Shown here piece after piece: positions 3,976 through 19,284 of a DNA stretch of 24,898 bases. The number at the start of each line of letters is the position of its first letter. Positions within the stretch are counted from its first letter, which is position 1. Position numbers and translations under genes: made by a program. This DNA comes from Chrysochromulina tobinii. Its lineage: Eukaryota; Haptophyta; Prymnesiales; Chrysochromulinaceae. The notes beneath the pieces were generated by a model that was not told the DNA's origin, searched no databases, and worked only from the letters and a program-made list of their open reading frames with translations. Location of the stretch: contig JWZX01001776.1 in the NCBI GenBank assembly GCA_001275005.1, positions 1-24,898 on the forward strand, read 5' to 3'.

Positions 3976-6321
3976 TCACAAGCCGCCGACGAGCTCGCTT
4001 GTCGCTACGGCTACGCCTGCAGGGTGGGCAATGAGCTGGATGCCCGTTGGGTTCCACGTGCGATAGTTTGTTCGCACTGGGGACGCGATGACAGTCGCGT
4101 TCGAGGTGCTGGCAGCTGCAACAGGTGTGGCTTGTGGCGTGTCCGCTACCCTCACCGAGCTCGTGCGCTTGCTGTTGCCTGGGATCGAGTCCCTCGGTGG
4201 AGTTGCCGTTCGTGAGGTGGTCCCGCTCGCGGGGACAGCAGCAGACGAAGCATGCGAGCCGACGATGCCTCCTACGGCTGCCTCGAAGACCGCCGCCTTC
4301 GTCGCCGCTGCCGTCGTCGTCGTCGTCGCCGCCGCCGCCACCTCCGCGTGAGAAGCCCCGTAAGTAGTGGAAGAATACGCATTCGCCGCGGCCTCGTCGA
4401 GCTGCCAGTGGAAGTGGAGCAAGCTGTCGGCCACCCCAAAGTTGGCGCCGAGTGAGCGATCCTTGGCAGCAAGCAGCTCCCGGAAGCGTCGCTTGACCAC
4501 GTCGCTCTCGCCCAGGCGCCGCTGCCGCGACTGGACTGCATCCAGCTGATGACGGTTGGCCAGTGCAGCGGCGCGCGTGTCCACGAGCCGTGTTGAGCGC
4601 TCGCGGCACGCGTGCTCCACGTGGTCAAGCTCGGCCCGCACTTGCTCCATGCGCTGCACTTGCTCGAACCGGAGCCGGCGGGTGGCGTTCATGCTGCTTG
4701 GGCCGAGCCTGTCGGAGCTGAGAAGGCCGGCACTCGAGCGGGGGAGTGAACTCATGCCGCGTGAGCCCAGTCTAGGCTCACGCACAAACGATTTGCCCAT
4801 AAGGTCGTCGTCGGCATTTTCGCCCTCGACGACGCTCTGGAGAAGCGCAGCGCTCACGCGATGGTGTGACGCGAGGACCGAAGAAGACGGGACTGGCGTG
4901 GCGCCTCGCCCTGGACGTCGGCTGCTGCTCATGCCGCTGGCACCAACGCTGCCTTCGCTGCCTCCTCCACCGCCTCCGCCTTGTCCTCCGCCGATTACTC
5001 CTTTGCTGCTGCTGCCACTACTGCTGCCACCATTCACACCTCGACTGCTCGCGAGCGGTTTTCGGCCGCGATGCGACGTGAGCGACGACCGATCGCTCGG
5101 CTGGCTGAGCGGCTGGCTTGCTTTCGCCCCGCCTGCGCTCGCCGCAGGCCTCTTACCGCCGCCACCGCGTTCAGAGGCTTGGGCGCCCCCTCGCTTGCCC
5201 TTCACATCGTGGGCACCTAGGTCGAGCTTGCGCACGCCAAGCTTTCCACCCTTGCTTGCTCCCACACCCACACCCTTGCTCGCGCCTGATGCGGCTCCGG
5301 ACGCGTGCGCGGCATCGGGACCGCCAGAGCTCGCGATCACCGCTGCGCTGGCCGACTTGGTCCGTGCCGTAGCACTGCCGCCGCCAGCGCCGCCGCCAGC
5401 GCCGCCAATCTCCGCGCCGAGACTGCGTGCCGTCAATGCCGTGGCGCCCCCGCCCATATGTGGCGTGCGCGGCGTGACCGCTAGCAAGCGCTTCGGGTCG
5501 TTCAGGTCTGCCTCCAGGTTGCCGATGCCCATCTCGAGCCGTCGAAGCCTCTGCGCCTCCACGTGTCGCCGCTTGTCCAGCGCGGCCTTGAAGTTGTTGC
5601 GTGCCTCACCAAGCATGATGGTGGGTACCTTGATCCACCGGCCAAACTCAAGCGCCGATTGCAGGGCCTGCTGGTCGTTGCCTTGCTGCACGAGCGTGAG
5701 CTGCTCCTCGGCCGTCGAGCGAAGGATCTGCATGAGCGCGGGCACGTCCTCGGGCGGCTTCGAGCCGGGCTGCTGCACTGTCGAGATGATGGCGCCGATG
5801 ATGATCTTCTTCACCTCGTCCTTTCCCTGCAGGATGAGCGTGTGCAGCATTTGGCCGGCGCTCTCGGCGAGCTGGCGCAGCTCGCGCCCGGATTCCTTGC
5901 GTGCGGCGATCTCGGCCTTGCTGAGCATGTACGCCTTCTTCTCGGGCGCATCATCCGAGCCGGACGTGCCGCTCTGACCCGAGGTCTCACTCTTGGGCTT
6001 GTTCTTGCTGTCGCCCGAGGTGGCCGACCGGTTCTCGTCGCCGCCGTCGTGCATCTTCGTCATCAGAGCCACGAGCTGTGGGATCACCGTCTTCTGAGCC
6101 GAGATGTACTCGAGATTGCGGTCACTTGAGAGAGCGATGTTGCGGAGCGCAACGAGCGCATCGGTCTTGCTGCTGATCGGCACAGTCATAGGGCGCGCCT
6201 TCTCCTTCTCGTCCGCGTCGAGCGCGTCGATTGCCGCCGACATGCCGGGAAGCAGCCCTGACATCTCGGAGAGGCTCGTGGCACGGGGTCGCAGGCCTGC
6301 TGCTGGTATGCTGCGGTCTTC

Positions 6322-6412
<91 letters not shown>

Positions 6413-6990
6413 GTGGCGGTAGCTGTCGTGGCTCGTCGACTAACGTCCAGTGTGGTGTCACTGGCGGCGGACTTGACCTCAACGGCGGTGGCCTTGTCAG
6501 AGATGATTGCAGCGAGGAAAGAAATGGCGTCGGCTTCACGCATCAGATCGCAGGCACGCGTGTTATTGGTCGTGACGGCTGCAATGGCACCGATTGCCTC
6601 GAGCGCACCCGACTTCATGAGACTGACCAGCTTGGTTGCCATGCCCGGCACCTCGGTCACCTCTCGCTTAAGCTGCTCGCCGCACTGCGACGCGAGCGCA
6701 GTGATGGTCTTAGTGGCCCTCATCTGCATGGTGCGCGATGCCGAGTTGATCATCAGCGTGACGATTTGAATGGCTTCAAGACGCCATGAGCTCTCGTCGT
6801 TCGCGTCCGTGGCCTCGTCGCGCTCGCGCTGTGCCAGCTCGTCGATGACGTTGCAGATCTGACAGACTGCAGCTGAGAACTCTGTCCGTGTGCTCGTGCT
6901 CGAAGTGGCCTCCAATACGGCAGCGGCAGCGGCAGTCGAGCTGTTCTGCCGCAAGTTGCGCTTGCCAGCGCCCGCCTTGAAGGAGCTCAT
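3976..6990 (-). CDS. ARM-repeat-like protein with polyglutamine tract and C-terminal coiled coil
   Basis: This is an intronless 1004-residue protein. The frame extends slightly upstream only through a TTG codon, so the ATG at 6990 is the start. Residues about 15-185 and 270-450 are alpha-helical repeats of armadillo/HEAT type, for example LEAIQIVTLMINSASRTMQM and TDALVALRNIALSSDRNLEY. They are interrupted by 30 consecutive glutamines at residues 194-223. Residues about 480-760 are a long Gly/Ser/Ala-rich, probably disordered linker with basic patches. Residues about 767-840 form a charged helical region (RRLRFEQVQRMEQVRAELDH) that looks like a coiled coil. ARM proteins are adaptors, and I infer a scaffold role, perhaps at the cytoskeleton or cilium given the divergent MORN partner. 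No catalytic motif is seen. The specific orthologue is not recognised. Confidence 0.8.
6322..6411 (-). repeat. CAG microsatellite encoding 30 glutamines
   Basis: On the gene strand this is 29 CAG codons followed by one CAA at the 3' end of the tract. The tract is almost pure, which implies a recent or length-variable expansion. It lies between two helical-repeat blocks of the ARM-like protein, so length changes would alter only a linker. Confidence 0.95.
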
Positions 6991-12098: not shown

Positions 12099-12590
12099 GT
12101 GCGTGGCGGCAGCAGCTTGCACGACGAGCTGTGCGCCGGCCGAGCCGGCAACGAGTGCAAGGTTGTCGACGAACTGCCTGCGGAGGCGGTGCCTCTCGAG
12201 GTGCGCCTCCCCTTCGTGTGGATTCACGACGCGGCGGAAGCGGGCGCCCTTGGGCCGGCGCTGTGTCGGGCGCCCTTGGGCCGGCGGAGGACGGCGCGGA
12301 CGATGATGAGTGGTCGCGCGAGGCCGGAGAGCTGCCGCATTTTCATGATGATCGTCGGCGCGACGGGCAGCGGCAAGACGCGGCTGCTTCGCTCGCTCGC
12401 CGGGTGCGCGGCCTCGCTCCGCAGCCGGCCGCGCTGGCCGTCGGGCCGCTCGATCCTCGATGGCCTGGGAGCCGACGGCGCGGCGCGCAGCGGGGCGGTC
12501 GGCGCCGATGGCGCATGGCCGATGGCGGACGGCGGTGCGGCGGACGGCGGTGCGGCCGCGGTGCGGCGGTGCGGCGAACGCATGGGCGAA
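12099..12590 (+). pseudogene. P-loop NTPase-like fragment
   Basis: The frame is open without an ATG at its 5' end. It reads ELPAEAVPLEVRLPFVWIHD and, after about 35 residues, IFMMIVGATGSGKTRLLRSL, where GATGSGKT (12357-12380) is a canonical Walker A motif. This is followed by W-P-x-G-R-S-I-L-D-G-L-G. The combination is reminiscent of ABC-type ATPases with a GNAT-like partner domain, from memory only. No Walker B or signature motif follows: the frame runs straight into a minisatellite. It is therefore probably a broken gene, or one exon of a gene whose other exons I could not define. Confidence 0.35.
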
Positions 12591-12591
12591 C

Positions 12592-12722
12592 GGCGGTGCG
12601 GCGACGGCGACGGCGGTGCGGCGACGGCGGTGCGGCGACGGCGGTGCGGCGACGGCGGTGCGGCGACGGCGGTGCGGCGACGGCGGTGCGGCGACGGCGG
12701 TACGGCGACGGCGGTACGGCGC
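12592..12722. repeat. 14-bp GC-rich minisatellite
   Basis: The unit GGCGGTGCGGCGAC is repeated about nine times with few changes; looser related units extend upstream to about 12527. Because 14 is not a multiple of three, the array cycles through all three frames and lacks stops in each, which creates spurious 14-residue protein repeats on both strands. It directly abuts the P-loop-like fragment. Confidence 0.85.
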
Positions 12723-13038: not shown

Positions 13039-14644
13039 TCACCAGTTCGCGCGGCTGGACCACGTGGATAAGTCCACCGCGCTGCCCTTGCGCACGACGA
13101 CCCCCGCCTGCCACTGCACCGCCGCCGGTGCGTCCGGATGTCGTTGCAGATAGGCCGCGCTGTAGTTGCCTCGCATGTTCACTTGCGGATTGTTCGGGTC
13201 CTCCTGGTGTTTGAGCCAGCACTGGGGCCAGCACGTAATCAGCACGTAATCAGCACGTAATCAGCACGCAATCAGCATGCAATCATCATCTGGTGTTTGA
13301 GCCAGCACTGGGGCCGATCATCGAGCCCAGTGGCAGTCAGCACGCAATCAGCACTCAACAAGCACGCAATCAACACGCAGTCAGCACGCAATCAACACGC
13401 AATCAGCATGCAGTCAGCACGCAATCAGCACGCAATCAGCATGCAATCAGAGAGGTCGCACCTGGCCGGTCATCGCAATCAGCACGCAATCAGCATGCAA
13501 TCAGAGAGGTCGCACCTGGCCGGTCATCGAGCCCGGTGGCAGCGCCGCGGGCGCATAGCACTTTGGCAGCGGGCAGAAGACGAATACGTTGCATGCAAAG
13601 AGGCTTGGCTTCTGAGGCTTCCAATTTAGGCAGCGCTCGCCGCACTCGTCGAGCGTGCGCGTCCGATGCCGATCGCCCCACACGAGCGCGTAGCCGTCAA
13701 AGTCCATGTTCGGGTATGCATGCACCACGCGCTCGGCCTGAGCCTCGGCAAGGTGGCAATCAGCACACAATCAGCCTGAAATCAGCCCGCAATCAGCATG
13801 CAATCAGCATGCAATCAGAGAGGTCGCACCTGAGCCTCGGCAAGGTGCTTGTCGGCGTCTTGCTTGAGTGTCCACTCGATCGCCTTCTGCACGTCCTCCT
13901 GCTTCGTGGCGTTCACGGCCGAGAGCGCAGCGACGGCCTGGGTGCGCGACAAGCCCAGTCTCGTCAATATCGTCAGATGAGTTGCGCGAAAAGCCCGGTG
14001 GCAATCAGCGTGCCATCAGCATGTAATCAGCAGGCCATCAGCATGCCATACAATCAGAGAGGTCGCACCTGGGTGCGCGAAAAGCCCGCCTCGATCATGG
14101 CCTGAATGAGCGGCGAGCTCTCGGCGACGCGAGGTGCGCCGCCCGGGTCAGTTGCCCCTTTGGCGTCCACCACGCGGGCCGCCGCCGCCGCCGCCGCCGC
14201 CGCTGCCGTTGCTGCTGCTGCTGCTCCTGCGCCTGCGGCTGCATGGCTGGGCGAGGGCGACGGCAGCGGCGGTGGCGAGGACAGCGGCGGCGGCGGAGGA
14301 GGCGGTGGTGGAGGAGGAGGCGGTGGTGGAGATGCTGCAAATAGCATACGCAGCTGGCGGTGGGTTGGCTGGCCGAGCGCTACGACGACTGGGCCGCCAG
14401 CCGCGAACAGCGTGACCGCGATGATGGAGAGAACGCTGAAGGTGAGCCATGGCCGCTTGCAAGACCTGGACGTTGTCTGCAGTCCGTCCTCCACATTGGC
14501 AGCGAGGACGTCGAGCAAGGCCGAATTGGCAGCGAGTTCGCCGAGCGAGGCCGACATATGATCGGCGACCGATTTCACAGGAAAACCAAGAAGCCAGGAA
14601 CGACAAGACTCCAGACTAGAAAGCCACACCTGCATGCATAGCAT
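13039..14644 (-). CDS. Membrane protein with UBA-like and PAN/apple-like domains, four exons
   Basis: Hand-built exons are 14644-14069, 13937-13830, 13737-13516 and 13221-13039, all in phase 0, giving 362 residues. Residues 66-90 are a single hydrophobic segment (WLTFSVLSIIAVTLFAAGG), suggesting a type II membrane protein. Poly-Pro (about 106-120) and poly-Ala linkers follow. Across the exon 1/2 junction, IEAGFSRTQ joins AVAALSAVNATKQEDVQKAI and EWTLKQ, a good UBA-like three-helix pattern. Exons 3 and 4 give a Cys-rich domain (DECGERCLNW, CNVFVFCPLPKC, then CWLKHQEDPNNPQVNMRGNY), which resembles PAN/apple-like modules seen in algal secreted or Golgi proteins. The join TGQ|CWLK supports the third splice. 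The three introns share their first 18 bases and carry tandem arrays. Start could also be the ATG at 14635 or 14557. Function is unknown; a lumenal binding role is inferred. Confidence 0.72.
13222..13515 (-). repeat. Intron 3 of the UBA/PAN gene: nested duplications and CTGATTGC array
   Basis: The 294-nt intron begins GTGCGACCTCTCTGATTG and carries a second copy of that head about 54 bases later, preceded by a copy of the end of exon 3 (GATGACCGGCCAG). Arrays of about 11 bases (CATGCTGATTG, CGTGCTGATTG and variants) follow. Further copies of the end of exon 3 (GCTCGATGATCGGCCCCAG) and of the start of exon 4 (TGCTGGCTCAAACACCAG at 13294-13311) occur before the final acceptor at 13222. Several competing splice sites therefore exist; only the model with the outermost pair gives a single clean join. 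Confidence 0.75.
13738..13829 (-). repeat. Intron 2 of the UBA/PAN gene
   Basis: This 92-nt intron starts with the same 18 bases as introns 1 and 3. It has five to six copies of a TGATTGC-type unit and ends in an exact 18-base copy of the end of exon 2 (CACCTTGCCGAGGCTCAG). The acceptor is thus provided by a duplicate of the upstream exon edge. Splicing joins AEAQ to AERVVHAYPN in frame. Confidence 0.75.
13938..14068 (-). repeat. Intron 1 of the UBA/PAN gene
   Basis: This 131-nt intron starts with GTGCGACCTCTCTGATTG, then has about five CTGAT-containing units. It ends in GGGCTTGTCGCGCACCCAG, a near-copy (one or two changes) of the end of exon 1 (GGGCTTTTCGCGCACCCAG). A partial third copy lies in between at about 13981-13999. 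The in-frame join reconstitutes a UBA-like helix pair. Confidence 0.72.
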
Positions 14645-14764
14645 ACCGACGGCACGTCACCGGAACTACACGCACCTAAGAAAACGCGTGTCCGGTGCAC
14701 AGCATACAACAGGATCCAAATTCCAATCATCAATGTATGTCAATGAGCTCCTATTGACAATTGC
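14645..14764. other. Spacer between two minus-strand genes
   Basis: This 120-base AT-richer spacer separates the stop of the SAM-like gene from the start of the UBA/PAN gene. It contains CAATGTATGTCAATGAG and the local repeat CTATTGACAATTGCCTATTGAC (first 16 bases CTATTGACAATTGCCT). It is probably the 3' end of one gene and the promoter of the next. Confidence 0.35.
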
Positions 14765-15436
14765 CTATTGACGCGTCCAACTGGCCAAGGCACGTCTCCT
14801 GACTGGAGCCCTTGTCCCGCTCATCCCCTCGCCGGCTGGAGCTGCGGATCCGCCCTGCGCTGGGTGCTGCTGGCCGCCATTCTCGACGGCCGCCCGAACC
14901 GCCATGTGGAGACGATTGAAGAATGGCAGGGCGACGCGAACGGCGTCCTCGACGGGGGAGATGAGCCCGAAAGCCAGCTCAGCGCGCAGCGCGCTCCCGT
15001 TCCCTTTGATGTCGACGCTCGTGTTCGGGCTTCGTAGCGTCGCCTCGAGCGCGACCTGTTGCTGCAGGCGCTCGTGGAGCATCGTCCCGTTGATGCCGAG
15101 CGCCTTGAAGCGTACGGCGGAATCGTTGAAGAGTCCGGGCGTCTTGCAACCAGACATGCAGGTGTTGCGTGCCCCCGTCTCCGAGAGCGAATCGACGAAT
15201 GCCGCCACTTCGTCGACGGACCAGTGAGCGAGCGGCGGTAGCATGTGTAGTCTTCTCGTAGCATTTGTCCTCTCTGCCGCGGAGCTTGGGCCGGTGGCTG
15301 CCTCGCAAACGCCGTATGCATCGCACATGCATCTGCCACAGGCTCGACAGCACCACGGCGCGACAAAGGACACCTGACATGCCAATTGCATCACGCGCAG
15401 CAGCCGACCGGTCGACGGCATTTTTATGGCCTTCAT
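14765..15436 (-). CDS. SAM-like-domain protein with putative signal sequence
   Basis: The frame is open from 15547 to 14765. I choose the ATG at 15436 because it places a hydrophobic signal-like stretch (MQLACQVSFVAPWCCRACG) near the N-terminus; ATGs at 15547 and 15391 are alternatives. The 223-residue product has HWSVDEVAAFVDSLSETGAR, then FNDSAVRFKALGINGTMLHE, which fits the W..eeV..fv...g.......l...gi.g..L pattern of a SAM domain, with an inserted Cys pair (CMSGC) and several N-glycosylation sequons. The C-terminal region reads like a second helical segment (AELAFGLISPVEDAVRVALP) with a Gly/Arg-rich end. SAM domains mediate protein or RNA binding and are usually cytosolic, so a secreted form would be unusual. 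It is divergent from the HTTM-like gene, with 179 bases between ATGs. Confidence 0.6.
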   Translation of the reverse strand: MKAIKMPSTGRLLRVMQLACQVSFVAPWCCRACGRCMCDAYGVCEAATGPSSAAERTNATRRLHMLPPLAHWSVDEVAAFVDSLSETGARNTCMSGCKTPGLFNDSAVRFKALGINGTMLHERLQQQVALEATLRSPNTSVDIKGNGSALRAELAFGLISPVEDAVRVALPFFNRLHMAVRAAVENGGQQHPAQGGSAAPAGEGMSGTRAPVRRRALASWTRQ

Positions 15437-15615
15437 CGTCGACCGTTTTCGTGCAATGGATCTTAATTCACAGGTTGCCGTCATCCGATCGAAACATGCG
15501 GGTGCGAGAGCGGAGAAAGAGCCGAATTGTGAGCGGCGAAAACTCATCTGTCTCGTTCACAGCCAATGATCTTAACGAAGCTTTCCATGGGAGAAGTCAC
15601 TGGAATCCTGGTCCG

Positions 15616-18600
15616 ATGAGACGCCGCCAGCTGGCGCGTGACGCCCGCTCGAGCGCTCCACGTTCTGACGACGACGACGACGAGGACGACTACGAAGAGT
15701 GGGTTGCGCTGCCCAATGGCTCTTTTCAGTTCGCATCGGCCGGTGCCTCAGAGAGGCAGCCATCGTCGCTGTCCAGTCCTGGCTCAGCTGGCTCGGGCGC
15801 CCTCGCGGCGTACGCCCGAATGTGGGCGGTGTACGTGTGCGTGCCGGCCGTAGATGCAGCACTCCTCGGTGCTCAGGGCGCGGTTGACAGCCGGCCGCTC
15901 GGCTATGGTGACCTGGTTCTCCTTCCCGCCGCCGTGCTCGCGGGCCTTTGGCCGACTCCGCGCAACCTTGTCGCGGCGCACCTCTGCAAGCTCCTTCTCT
16001 TCGCCGCTCGCCTGCCGTTCGTCTGGGACCACGAGTGGTGGGCGTCTCTGAACGAGGCTGCGCTCGTTGCCGCGTGGCTGCTCTGCCCGCCCCAGCGCTT
16101 CTGCTCGGCATTCTGCGCAGCCGCGCGCATGCAACTCATCGTCCTCTACGCGAGCGCGGCATTCTGGAAGCTGAATACGAGCTTCCTCTCGCCGTCGACG
16201 TCGTGCGCGACCGTCATCCTGATCCAGCAGCTCGCCGCCTACGCGCCCCGCGGCCTCGCGACGTCCATCGCACCCCTCGTCGGTAAGGCACCCTGCATGC
16301 AAGAGAGGGCTCCCTGCATGCAAGTGCCCACCACGGCGCCGCCCCTCCTCCCTCCTGAGCACAGGTGCGGTGGCCCCCGTGCTCGGCCCGAATTGCCCTG
16401 ATTGCCCTAATTGCCCTAATTGCCCTAATTAGGTGCGGTGGCCCCCGTGCTCGGCCTCGTCGTCGAGTCGCTCATCCCCCTAATTGCCCTGATTGCCCTA
16501 ATTGCCCTAATTAGGTGCGGTGGCCCCCGTGCTCGGCCTCGTCGTCGAGTCGCTCATCCCCTTGCTGCTCCTCTTCATCCCCACTTTGGGCGTCGCGCTC
16601 GCGCTCGCGTTCCACGCTCTCGTCCTCCTCACGCCCGCGCCCAACTACGCGGGCGGCTTCTCGGTGTCGTGTGCATGCCGGCTGCTCCTCGCGCTGCCGG
16701 ATCTGGAGCAGGCAGGATCTCGCGGCCTAATCCCTGATTGCCCTAATTGCCCTAATTGCCCTAATTGCCCTAATTGCCCTAATCCCGGATCTGGAGCAGG
16801 CGGCGAGCGTTCAGCTCTTCTCGCGCGCCGGCGTGATCGCGGGCGCTGTCTCGAGCGCGTTGGTGCCCAGTGCAACCTTCGGGGCGTTCGCTGCCATCGG
16901 TGCGGCGCTCATAACGGCGCTCGTGCCTAATTTGGAGCGGATGGCTTTCTTGCCTAATTTGGACCGGGTGGCGCTCCTCCGCGGCCGCATGGCACCCCAC
17001 CGCATGCAACGGCCCTCACCGCCGCTGGCAGCCGACCCTAATCTGGAAGCAGACCCTAATTTGGGAGCCCGACGGCTGATGCATGCTGCGAGCTACGCGA
17101 CGGCACTGTACGCCTTCGCGCTGCCGGTGCTCGGGTTGCTGCATATGGGCTCGAGCTCGATGTAACGGCTGCTCCCACTGATTGCCCCTGATTGCCCCTG
17201 CGATGGGCTCGAGCTCGATGTAACGGCTGCTGCCACTGATTGCCACTGATTGCCCCTGCGATGGGCTCGAGCTCGATGTAACGGCTGCTGCCACTGATGG
17301 CGGAGTGCCACTGATTACGATTGAGTGCTTATTAGTGCCGCTGGCGATACTTTTAGTCCATCTCTCTCCCACTGTGTGCCTCTGATTGCGTCTGATTGCA
17401 TCTGATTGCCTCTGATTGCCTCTGATTGCCTCTGACTGCCGCGTATGAGTCCATCTCCCTCACACTAATGTCACCGATGGCCTTTCGAGTGCTCACCACG
17501 GCGCCTGCGCCCCACAGGAACGCGAACCTGATTGCCTCTGATTGCCTCTGATTGCCTCTGATTGCCTCTGATTGCCTTTCGAGTGCTCACCACGGCGCCT
17601 GCGCCCCACAGGTACGCGAACCTGAAGCACTGGGGGGGCAGCAACCATCTCCTCGTCCCGACTGGACTCTTGCAGGTGCCCTCGAGTGCCTCTGAGTGCC
17701 ACTGAGTGCTGACTGATTGCAATCAATCATTCACAGATTGCTCACTGATTGCTCACTGATTGCTCACTGATTGCTCACTGATTCCACTGATTGCTCACTG
17801 ATTCCACTGATTGCTCACTGATTGCTGACTGATTCCACTGATTGCTCACTGATGCCCCCCTTGCAGGATTGGTTTGCCAAGAGAGTGCTCCCTGCATGCA
17901 AGTGCCCACCACGGCGCCACCCCTCCTCCCTTTTTTGCAGGATTGGTTTGCCGAGTCGGGGGGCGCTCTGGGCGACTGGTTCGGCGGCGGGCTTGTGCGC
18001 GTCGAGATGGCGCGAGATATGTCGAGCTCGGCCCAGATTGCGAGGGCGGGCGTTGGGGCTGGCACTGGCGGGCTTGAGTCACTCAACGCGTGGGTGCAGG
18101 TGGAGCCATCCCCAGCCGCGTCGGAGCTGCTGCATGCAAGTGCTCACCACGGCGCCTCCGCCTCTTCCCCACAGGTGGAGCCATCCCCAGCCGCGTCGGA
18201 GCTGCTGCATGCAAGTGCTCACCACGGCGCCTCCGCCTCTTCCCCACAGGTGGAGCCATCCCCAGCCGCGTCGGAGCTGCTGCGTGCAAGTGCTCACCAC
18301 GGCGCCTCCGCCTCTTCCCCACAGGTGGAGCCATCCCCAGCCGCGTCGGAGCTGCTGCGAGCTGCCGGGCACAGCGGTACGCTGCGCTGAGTGCGACTGA
18401 GTGCACCTGAGTGGTCTGATTGCGTCCGACACAGCGGTACGCTGCTCTGAGTGCACCTGAGTGCGACTGCGTGTTTCTGATTGCGCGTGTCTGATTGCGT
18501 CAGAGTGCGTCAGAGTGCGTCTCTCCCCTCTTGATGGCATGCATCATCAGACCTCTCCTCTTGATTGCATGCTTCATCAGCCTGAGTGCGTCCCTCCACA

Positions 18601-19284
18601 GGCAAGCAACTCTCCGCGTACTACTCACCAGGGCGCATGGCGTCCCTTGATGCCGCGGGCCACTCCGTCTCTATCCCCGCGTGGCCCGTTGCGATGCCCG
18701 CCTTCGAGGTGCGCGCATCGGGCGCCCACGACGGCGCGCACCCCTCCAGACTCCCTCCCTCGCCCACGACGGCGCGTAGCCCTCCAGACTCCCTCCCTCG
18801 CCCACGACGGCGCGTAGCCCTCCAGACTCCCTCCCTCGCCCACGACGGCGCGTAGCCCTCCAGACTCCCTCCCTCGCCCACGACGGCGCCCCCTCTCCTG
18901 AGCTGCGCCATGTCCGCACAGGTGCGGCGCGTGCTCACGACGGCGCGTACCCTGGGCATTCGATTGGAGTTCACACTCACGCGGCTGCCTCCGGCCCTGC
19001 GCACGCCTGCCACGTGGCTTGAGTACAAGGGGCGTTCGGTGCAGGTGCGCAGTGACGGGACGTGCGTACCGGTACGGCGCTCTCGGTGGACCCTTGGCCG
19101 TTGGGCGCCGTCGTGGGCACCGAAGCGGGCGCCGTTCTGGGCGCGTGGCCGTGTGGAAGATGCATGCACGCCGAGCGAGGCGCAGCTAGCCCAGCCGCCG
19201 CCTCGGCTCTTGAGTGCGCTGCTGCTGCCGTACCCAGCGCCGCTGCTCGAGGGTGATGGGGCGGAACTCCACTGCAGTTCTTGA
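15616..19284 (+). CDS. HTTM-like multi-pass membrane protein, eight exons
   Basis: Hand-built exons are 15616-16282, 16515-16711, 16800-17161, 17612-17675, 17941-18099, 18325-18376, 18602-18708 and 18922-19284; phases close throughout to give 656 residues. The N-terminus is acidic (SDDDDDEDDYEEW). Several hydrophobic segments follow, including LVLLPAAVLAGLW, LLLLFIPTLGVALALAFHAL and YATALYAFALPVLGLLH. Diagnostic stretches are VLYASAAFWKLNTSFLSPST, YANLKHWGGSNHLLVPTGLL and DWFGGGLVRVE, which I associate with HTTM/gamma-carboxylase-like proteins of algae. A C-terminal soluble part ends LLLPYPAPLLEGDGAELHCS. Family enzymes modify or bind lipid or quinone substrates, but no catalytic claim is possible here. 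Exon 3 contains a 27-base in-frame duplication (PNLERMAF/PNLDRVAL). All introns but one use GT-AG; intron 2 uses GC-AG. Fusion of exon 6 with flanking 75-bp repeats is possible because they are in frame. Confidence 0.72.
16283..16514 (+). repeat. Intron 1 of the HTTM-like gene: acceptor and exon start triplicated
   Basis: The 232-nt intron starts GTAAGG. The start of exon 2 (GTGCGGTGGCCCCCGTGCTC) occurs three times after an AG: at 16365, at 16433 and at the true exon start 16515. The copies are 24 and about 47 bases long and are separated by arrays of the 9-base unit AATTGCCCT. The first acceptor is preceded by GTGCCCACCACGGCGCC. All three acceptors are plausible, but only the last leads into continuous coding sequence. 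Confidence 0.75.
16712..16799 (+). repeat. Intron 2 of the HTTM-like gene, GC-AG with flanking duplication
   Basis: This 88-nt intron has a GCAGGA donor. It holds about six 9-base units (AATTGCCCT type) and ends in CCGGATCTGGAGCAG, an exact copy of the end of exon 2. The length is not a multiple of three, so removal is required to keep LPDLEQ|AASVQLFSRAG in frame. Confidence 0.7.
17162..17611 (+). repeat. Intron 3 of the HTTM-like gene: donor triplicated, acceptor duplicated
   Basis: The 450-nt intron starts GTAACGG. The end of exon 3 plus donor (GGGCTCGAGCTCGATGTAAC) recurs twice more inside the intron, near 17205 and 17264, each followed by GGCTGCTGCCACTGATTGCC-like units. Later come arrays of the 10-base unit GATTGCCTCT. 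The acceptor region (TGCTCACCACGGCGCCTGCG...CACAG plus ACGCGAACCTG of exon 4) occurs twice, ending at 17517 and 17611. The join gives SSSMYANLKHWGGSNH. Confidence 0.72.
17676..17940 (+). repeat. Intron 4 of the HTTM-like gene: GATTGCTCACT array and duplicated acceptor
   Basis: The 265-nt intron starts GTGCCC. It carries an array of the 11-base unit GATTGCTCACT at about 17733-17853. The acceptor plus exon start (TTGCAGGATTGGTTTGCC) appears at 17861 and again at the true junction (exon 5 begins 17941). The last 62 bases are nearly identical to part of intron 1. Confidence 0.75.
18100..18324 (+). repeat. Three 75-bp tandem units acting as intron 5 (or in-frame coding repeat)
   Basis: Units start at 18100, 18175 and 18250, and a partial fourth starts at 18325 (exon 6). 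Each unit begins GTGGAGCCATCCCCAGCC after CAG and ends GTGCTCACC...CCCCACAG, so each border reads CAG|GTG and can serve both as donor and acceptor. Because 75 is a multiple of three and no stop occurs, the array may be spliced out fully, partly or retained as four 25-residue coding repeats. Confidence 0.8.
18377..18601 (+). repeat. Intron 6 of the HTTM-like gene
   Basis: The 225-nt intron starts GTACGC. The exon end plus donor (ACACAGCGGTACGCTG) is repeated at about 18430, followed by GAGTGC and TGATTGC units, then two copies of a TCTCCTCTTGATTGCATGC-like element. It ends CTCCACAG. The join gives GHS-G-KQLSAYYSPG in frame. Confidence 0.68.
18709..18921 (+). repeat. Intron 7 of the HTTM-like gene with 38-bp tandem repeat
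   Basis: The 213-nt intron starts GTGCGC and contains about four copies of a 38-bp unit (CACGACGGCGCGTAGCCCTC plus CAGACTCCCTCCCTCGCC) at about 18727-18888. The unit resembles the start of exon 8 (GCTCACGACGGCGCGTACCC), so the array may have grown from a copy of that exon edge. The acceptor is CCGCACAG. The join gives PAFE|VRRVLTTAR. Confidence 0.68.

Follow-up and report, generated by a model that had tools for sequence, protein, structure and literature searches.

Introns of two neighbouring genes on opposite strands in Chrysochromulina tobinii carry copies of the edges of their own exons, and similar structures recur elsewhere in the genome. Both genes lie on contig JWZX01001776.1 of assembly GCA_001275005.1, one whole contig of 24,898 nucleotides that we call the window; Chrysochromulina is a haptophyte genus. 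Taking the structure as a whole, we consider it probable that the nuclear genome of this haptophyte has received introner-like insertions. In each, a short insert (median about 60 bases) lies in coding sequence, flanked by two copies of the local exon 13–55 bases long. The insert carries a branch-site-like TGATTGC array and/or a pyrimidine tract, as well as one splice site at one of its ends, either AG at the 3′ end or GT (GC) at the 5′ end, and the other splice site would be the matching edge of the copied exon segment. A cut from the first to the second copy would remove one copy plus the insert and preserve the reading frame. Introns once born would then grow by further insertion at their acceptor or donor and by amplification in tandem of copy-plus-insert units.

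The minus-strand gene of the window, labelled UBA/PAN in the first-pass annotation, was modelled with three introns (M1–M3) and a last exon starting at 13221, and gave an open frame after excision. The plus-strand gene, labelled HTTM-like, has eight exons and seven introns (P1–P7) and forms a single open frame once these are removed. In each intron we looked for the best gap-free match to the 60 exon bases that adjoin it on either side and compared it with 100 dinucleotide shuffles. In eight of the ten introns (P1–P5 and M1–M3), an exon copy of 12–47 bases lay within 2 nt of the junction and was matched by 0 of 100 shuffles each. These copies measured 47, 15, 17 (plus 12), 12 and 35 bases in P1 to P5, and 19, 18 and 25 (plus 18) bases in M1 to M3; those in M1, M2 and P2 are placed exactly at the 3′ splice site. 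The first-pass annotation had claimed that most of the ten introns hold extra exon-edge copies, which is borne out, and that M2 ends in an exact 18-base copy of the end of exon 2, which is correct. It had also counted three copies of the start of exon 2 in P1; two are indeed extra (16363 and 16431), and the third (16513) is the exon itself. P6 showed no exon-edge copy beyond the shuffles (7 exon bases), and its donor is spanned by a 44-base repeat, 86% identical (18370 and 18430). P7 contains a 38-bp array and a 17-base exon match that no shuffle reached, 14 nt off the junction.

Between the exon copies lies a non-exonic insert, made of a TGATTGC array with a pyrimidine tail or of a GTGCTCACCACGGCGCC element. 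M1, M2 and M3 share the start GTGCGACCTCTCTGATTG and continue with TGATTGC-type units arrayed mostly at 11-base intervals. M1 and M2 close with a copy, 19 and 18 bases long respectively, of the exon preceding their donor, while the 25-base copy in M3 lies deeper and is followed by another duplication. The flanking duplication of P4 is exact and comprises 18 bases, acceptor plus exon start. Of the 39 array motifs on the plus strand of the window, 37 fell in the intron-bearing span of the plus gene (P1 to P7), and 17 of the 18 on the minus strand fell within 13222–14068, the intron stretch of the minus gene. We searched the genome (53.15 Mb, 2253 contigs) for both kinds of insert. The 21-mer TGATTGCCTCCCTCATCAGGT occurs in 590 exact copies (298 + 292; reversed control 0) and the 17-mer GTGCTCACCACGGCGCC in 668 (334 + 334; control 0), placed in introns at the loci read rather than for every genome copy. 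Pattern scans outside the genome gave no viral contig and one prokaryote contig, taken as chance. Within P7, repeated 38-bp units (CGCCCACGACGGCGCGTAGCCCTCCAGACTCCCTCCCT) at 18723–18890 resemble the GTGCTCACCACGGCGCC theme.

To sample the genome, we took 25 ten-kb stretches chosen blind by contig number, 20 short stretches (19 around arrays, 1 around a 17-mer), seven of eight further loci around the 17-mer (one overlapped another) and the window. Direct repeats of at least 13 bases, with a 10-base exact seed, were sought on either side of an array or 17-mer insert. This gave 62 structures, 12 of which, including P4 and P5, were dropped because the segment exceeded 60 bases or contained GATTGC, TGATGG or GATTGG; the 50 usable ones comprise 18 from blind stretches, 24 from targeted loci and 8 from the window. 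The process that the first-pass annotation had taken to be local to two adjacent genes is therefore not confined to them, since the blind cases come from 7 of the 25 stretches. It is patchy across the genome, as 11 of the 18 lie in two stretches. The duplicated segment is variable in length (13–55 bases, median 26.5) and the insert has a median of 59.5 bases. Segment pairs are identical in 29 of 50 structures and match at 1320 of 1350 bases in a search that favours near-identical copies; the copies look recent. An earlier direct-repeat scan, with the right edge at AG/GT or AG/GC, had given 41 of 756 on both strands, with shifted edges up to 5.3%; swamped by arrays and coding repeats, it was uninformative, and the search that replaced it finds left edges too.

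The splice sites show a regularity. For exact restoration we required GT (or GC) at some point of the first copy and AG immediately upstream of the corresponding point of the second. The null came from 1000 trials in which randomly chosen segments of these loci were duplicated around the inserts found there. Exact GT–AG removal was possible in 22 of the 50 structures (28 with GC), against a null mean of 5.3 and maximum of 13. All 22 had their splice sites at the segment edge: 15 lie no more than 5 nt from the left end, 7 no more than 3 nt from the right end (null mean 1.7, maximum 7 in 1000). The blind subset alone gave 6 excisable structures out of 18 (null 1.5, maximum 6 in 500), and edge sites on either strand of the blind stretches were found in 5 of 18 motif-bearing duplications versus 11 of 97 motif-less ones. 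Left-class inserts carry the acceptor at their 3′ end, with the donor at the start of the exon copy; right-class inserts open with the donor, and the acceptor closes the exon copy. The first copy has AG before GT in 9 of the 15 left-edge cases, and in the other six the acceptor AG is provided in part or in full by the insert. Among 14 left-edge cases, 7 have their last TRAY adenine 16 nt upstream of the 3′ end of the intron, a plausible branch-site distance. Exon and insert overlap at their junction (microhomology) at a CTGATTGC unit in 9 of the 17 cases where this is possible, versus 4% expected.

Excision also restores conserved proteins. At locus L021, in a blind stretch, it restores CRNKL1, which aligns gap-free to the solved 8c6j at the junction between TSHPK and VWISFARFE. 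At L040, cut by hand and outside the 50, it restores FtsZ, gap-free against the solved 2vam between NVDFAD and VRAVM. Excision at L011 and L051 gives products with matches to ion-channel and ankyrin families, and the excised L044 piece gave no matches. The excised minus-gene protein of the window was unbroken at all three junctions against ten relatives, chosen for alignment out of 43 found and including two MMETSP transcriptome proteins (P0158 and P0163); this alignment supports the splice models of the minus gene by protein continuity. In CRNKL1, FtsZ and the UBA/PAN gene, the inserts thus appear to lie in coding sequence and to be removed by splicing without change to the protein. In 26 of 28 excision-site cases the frame would be lost if the segment were kept, weak evidence given that random insertions mostly break frames too, and at least 25 open codons remain on each side after excision in 23 of 28, which random excisions achieve in 62% and which is weak alone.

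Several observations weigh against this interpretation. Duplications shorter than 13 bases are invisible to the search, and the targeted loci were chosen for their motif clusters, which leaves the blind set, with its modest excess, as the one unbiased sample. No exact sense GT–AG site exists in 28 of the 50 structures (6 of these are GC–AG), and the antisense strand, for which no null was computed, gives sites in 8 of 50. By eye only, several of the 11 motif-less edge cases resemble inserts that fall short of the motif threshold. Insert ends vary, and the inserts of L011 and L017 are less alike within their contig than to other contigs. Junction overlap with the array occurs in only 9 of 50 structures overall, one of them (P3) inside the array; microhomology as a general rule was rejected on this count, being suggestive and not general. 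Finally, no single-copy allele or relative of any duplicated segment was seen at the DNA level.

The alternative that survives best, which we nevertheless regard as unlikely, is that old introns were lengthened by slippage or unequal exchange across their splice sites without any gain, such duplications being tolerated because splicing removes the extra copy. It would account for the tandem units at L040, L048 and L051 and for P3, where the exon end and donor are repeated. What separates the two is the sequence before the first copy, exon-like bases indicating gain and acceptor-like bases growth. By eye, these bases are exon-like in 13 of 15 left-edge cases; the exceptions, L039 and P1, are acceptor-like, as is P4 (outside the 50). 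M1–M3, moreover, share a gene-exclusive donor sequence at three exon positions, which also counts against lengthening. P1 and P4 suggest growth and not birth, with later insertion at an acceptor already present; P1 looks like an older intron that received two successive inserts there. Insertion may therefore hold alongside growth for single introns, and our probabilities for the alternatives overlap with that of insertion and do not sum to one. Successive AG/GT copies in P1 (16363–16515) are possible zero-length-exon (recursive) splice points.

Relatives of both genes bear on the turnover of the introns. In P0012, a relative of the plus gene (79% identity across 26% of the query), a stretch of 29 residues that includes VLTTAPSPPHR separates WDHEW from WASL, at a place where window exon 1 (around 16040) is uninterrupted. 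Judged from the protein, this stretch reads as a retained GTGCTCACCACGGCGCC-type intron, a candidate presence/absence pair. P0012 also seems to share the read-through of intron 1, so that intron 1 of the plus gene may be older than the split from P0012. Among the minus-gene relatives, intron-like stretches occur between DFDG and YALVWG in P0158 (in the alignment) and in P0171 and P0183 (by eye). The window gene has no intron at that place, and relatives thus seem to vary in where their introns lie. HTTM paralogs in the same assembly (C1914, C1862, C2198 and C2241) have long open frames; as proof of intron gain they were set aside, because identity is only 30–42%, C1862 is split into two pieces and the assembly may be a mixed bin.

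The copying step is constrained by the long, variable duplications, by insert families that are partly genome-wide and partly nearly private, and by junction overlaps at some CTGATTGC units. We tentatively favour a repair origin, in which the duplication would arise from fill-in of two offset nicks or of a staggered break, and the filler would be copied by template switching from resident introns, often of the same gene. A mobile element with variable staggering comes close behind. Two inserts are nearly private to one gene, pointing to local copying: all four genome hits (up to 1 mismatch) of a 22-mer donor sequence fall in the minus gene, and four of six hits of a 20-mer insert word fall in contig C420. 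Insert similarity is 0.43 within contigs versus 0.33 between them, a difference reached by 3 of 2000 permutations. It is conceivable, if somewhat doubtful, that each affected gene breeds its own introns without a transposon, repair duplicating 15–50 bp of exon and copying the tail of a neighbouring intron. If so, introns would beget introns locally, with the arrays and one splice site copied and the other site taken from the duplicated exon, and stacked AG/GT insertions would create recursive splice points of the kind seen in P1.

We compared these structures with known systems. Introners have been reported in Chrysochromulina sp. TARA_PON_109_MAG_00232, with 4-bp duplications (Gozashti et al. 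2022, PMC9860276), and the target-site duplications of DNA-type introners are given there as 3–9 bp. As in those introners, repeated inserts become introns, one splice site is carried and one comes from the target, and the frame is mostly kept; many introns share sequence within one genome, here through two motifs. Unlike them, the introns described here have variable duplications of 13–55 bp in 50 cases (the range below 13 being outside the search) and minisatellite-like inserts, and the shared sequence reaches only one splice site, because one intron end is a local exon copy. Movement of classical introners by a cut-and-paste DNA transposase with short, fixed target-site duplications would fit the genome-wide families and the pairing of one carried with one co-opted site; given the length and variability of the copies and the varying insert ends, we consider it improbable. 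In sum, the system works like an introner, yet lacks shared sequence at both boundaries and has duplications outside the quoted ranges. Because that survey excluded low-complexity families and asked for similarity extending close to both splice boundaries, minisatellite-like introns could have escaped it.

Tandem duplication of an AGGT-containing exon segment is a recognised route to intron gain (PMC3443670, PMC4974935), and the first-pass annotation had invoked it here. In this model (Rogers 1989) both splice sites come from AGGT and the intron is exon-derived. Part of that proposal stands: the copies are real, recent-looking and located at splice sites, and their arrangement fits birth with edge duplication. 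As in the model (review PMC3443670), the duplicated segment supplies splice sites. Many left-edge segments begin with or near AGGT, and tandem copy-insert units occur in the window and at L040, L048, L051 and L052. An unrelated insert of a genome-wide family nevertheless separates the copies, so the intron is not solely duplicated exon, and in the six left-edge first copies without AG before GT the insert must complete the acceptor. We consider the classical model quite improbable, slightly more so than cut-and-paste movement. In the model and in a potato case, where most splice signals were inherited from the parental intron, there is one contiguous duplication, whereas the structures described here, found in many genes, have an insert separating two exon copies. 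The least credible alternative is that coding repeats in tandem, or errors of assembly, were mistaken for introns: spacing is divisible by 3 in 65 of 97 motif-less blind duplications (8 of 18 motif-bearing) and the 75-bp units of P5 are open in frame, yet excision restores conserved proteins, retention mostly breaks the frame (with the weakness noted above) and assembly error does not predict splice sites at segment edges.

Other systems resemble this one in part. Gained introns of Daphnia pulex have been ascribed to staggered double-strand break repair, with repeats of 4–12 bp (Li et al. 2014, PMC4202315); stacked later insertions are common to both, whereas the copies here are longer (median 26.5 bp in a search from 13 bp upwards) and the insert belongs to a genome-wide or gene-private family. 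Introner elements of Amoebophrya (PMC7789003) likewise have direct repeats over exon/intron borders and variable motifs, and are said to spread like transposable elements; they differ in having 3–5 nt direct repeats, 8–20 nt inverted repeats and mostly non-canonical introns, against long direct copies and GT/GC–AG here. Rogers and Bendich (2025, PMC11782384) described, for 213 introns, direct repeats of 4–30 bp (mean 11.4) located at the borders or close to them, and read them as insertion scars; theirs is a broad survey whose abstract mentions neither an insert family nor a splice-site-edge rule. In the openly licensed literature, no title or beginning of an abstract among the matches listed mentioned haptophyte introns of this kind, and searches for haptophyte introns with minisatellites or Emiliania introns with tandem repeats returned nothing.

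Some loci and records stand apart. At L055 (C343:1950–2850) the 17-mer element recurs with flanking duplications in coding-looking sequence, several frames of which are open by eye, and some copies of this element may be translated rather than spliced. At L052 (C358:2350–2950), four 57-bp array units allow exact GT–AG excision only on the strand opposite TGATTGC. In a principal component analysis of tetranucleotides, which asked whether insert-rich contigs come from another organism, L011, L017 and L036 lay off centre, as did the motif-poor L016 and L033, and the insert-rich half of the window lay with the bulk; a mixed bin is possible for this assembly. The ETF-QO protein at L028, in a blind contig, is 98% identical to a database protein; among named organisms, the closest matches are Coccolithus braarudii (79%; taxid 221442) and a pavlovophyte (68%), which points to a haptophyte as the most likely source. 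The minus-gene product has weak Pfam matches, all under the cut-offs, to UBA_7 (E 7e-4; residues 150–192, crossing M1), UBA (0.03) and PAN_4 (0.12). The plus-gene product matched no Pfam family at E up to 1, and an Rfam scan of the window at the gathering threshold returned nothing. The predicted protein P0184 carries domain PF05013, which we take to be N-formylglutamate amidohydrolase, and runs into exon 3 of the UBA/PAN gene. It matches part of that exon at 100% and continues as QVRPL, the read-through of the M3 donor, so that sequence is present in another record; P0184 is probably a gene-prediction or contig chimera. Elsewhere in the window, a 1043-aa open frame without a Pfam match contains a glutamine run of about 30 residues (minus strand, around 6300–6420), and a GC-rich repeated unit at about 12580–12720 is visible as repeating translations in several frames.

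Table 1. Introns of the two window genes and the copies and inserts within them.
Feature	Positions	Strand	Basis
M3 (minus intron 3), GTGCGA...CCAG	13222..13515	-	reading of sequence, protein alignment, shuffle test
18-base copy of exon 4 start in M3	13290..13307	-	shuffle test
25-base copy (2 mismatches) of exon 3 end in M3	13312..13336	-	shuffle test
Second M3 copy of gene-private 22-mer (CAG plus donor GTGCGACCTCTCTGATTGC)	13443..13464	-	genome motif search
13-base copy of exon 3 end, then second private donor copy	13462..13474	-	read from sequence
Gene-private 22-mer at M3 donor	13497..13518	-	genome motif search
M2 (minus intron 2)	13738..13829	-	gene model, protein alignment, shuffle test
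Exact 18-base exon 2 end copy giving M2 acceptor	13738..13755	-	shuffle test
Gene-private 22-mer at M2 donor	13811..13832	-	genome motif search
M1 (minus intron 1)	13938..14068	-	gene model, protein alignment, shuffle test
19-base exon 1 end copy (1 mismatch) giving M1 acceptor	13938..13956	-	shuffle test
Extra partial exon 1 end copy (14 bases) in M1	13983..13996	-	read from sequence
Gene-private 22-mer (1 mismatch) at M1 donor	14050..14071	-	genome motif search
P1 (plus intron 1), GTAAGG...TTAG	16283..16514	+	gene model, shuffle test
First duplicate in P1: 26-base copy, AG plus exon 2 start	16363..16388	+	direct-repeat search
Second duplicate in P1: 49-base copy, AG plus exon 2 start (47 exon bases)	16431..16479	+	shuffle test
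P2, GC-AG; last 15 bases (16785-16799) copy exon 2 end	16712..16799	+	shuffle test
P3; exon-end copies from 17203 and 17261 (58-bp units), exon-start copy 17520-17531	17162..17611	+	shuffle test
P4	17676..17940	+	gene model, shuffle test
TTGCAGGATTGGTTTGCC, upstream P4 duplicate; downstream copy 17935-17952 is acceptor plus exon start	17861..17878	+	direct-repeat search
Insert between P4 copies; 17878-17931 is 96% identical over 54 bases to 16300-16353 in P1	17879..17934	+	
P5: three 75-bp units, each a copied exon-start segment plus GTGCTCACCACGGCGCC insert	18100..18324	+	repeats, shuffle test
P6; 44-base repeat (86%) over donor, no significant exon-edge copy	18377..18601	+	
P7; 38-bp array, 17-base exon copy 14 nt from junction	18709..18921	+	

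The origin of introns is an old question for which few systems have been caught in the act, and here a single genome offers many recent-looking cases. Their anatomy tells the insert-derived from the exon-derived part of each new intron. Surveys that filter out low-complexity introns may have overlooked minisatellite-like inserts of this kind. The long duplications could make each case datable, and they lead to a simple prediction: an empty allele should carry exactly one copy of the duplicated segment.

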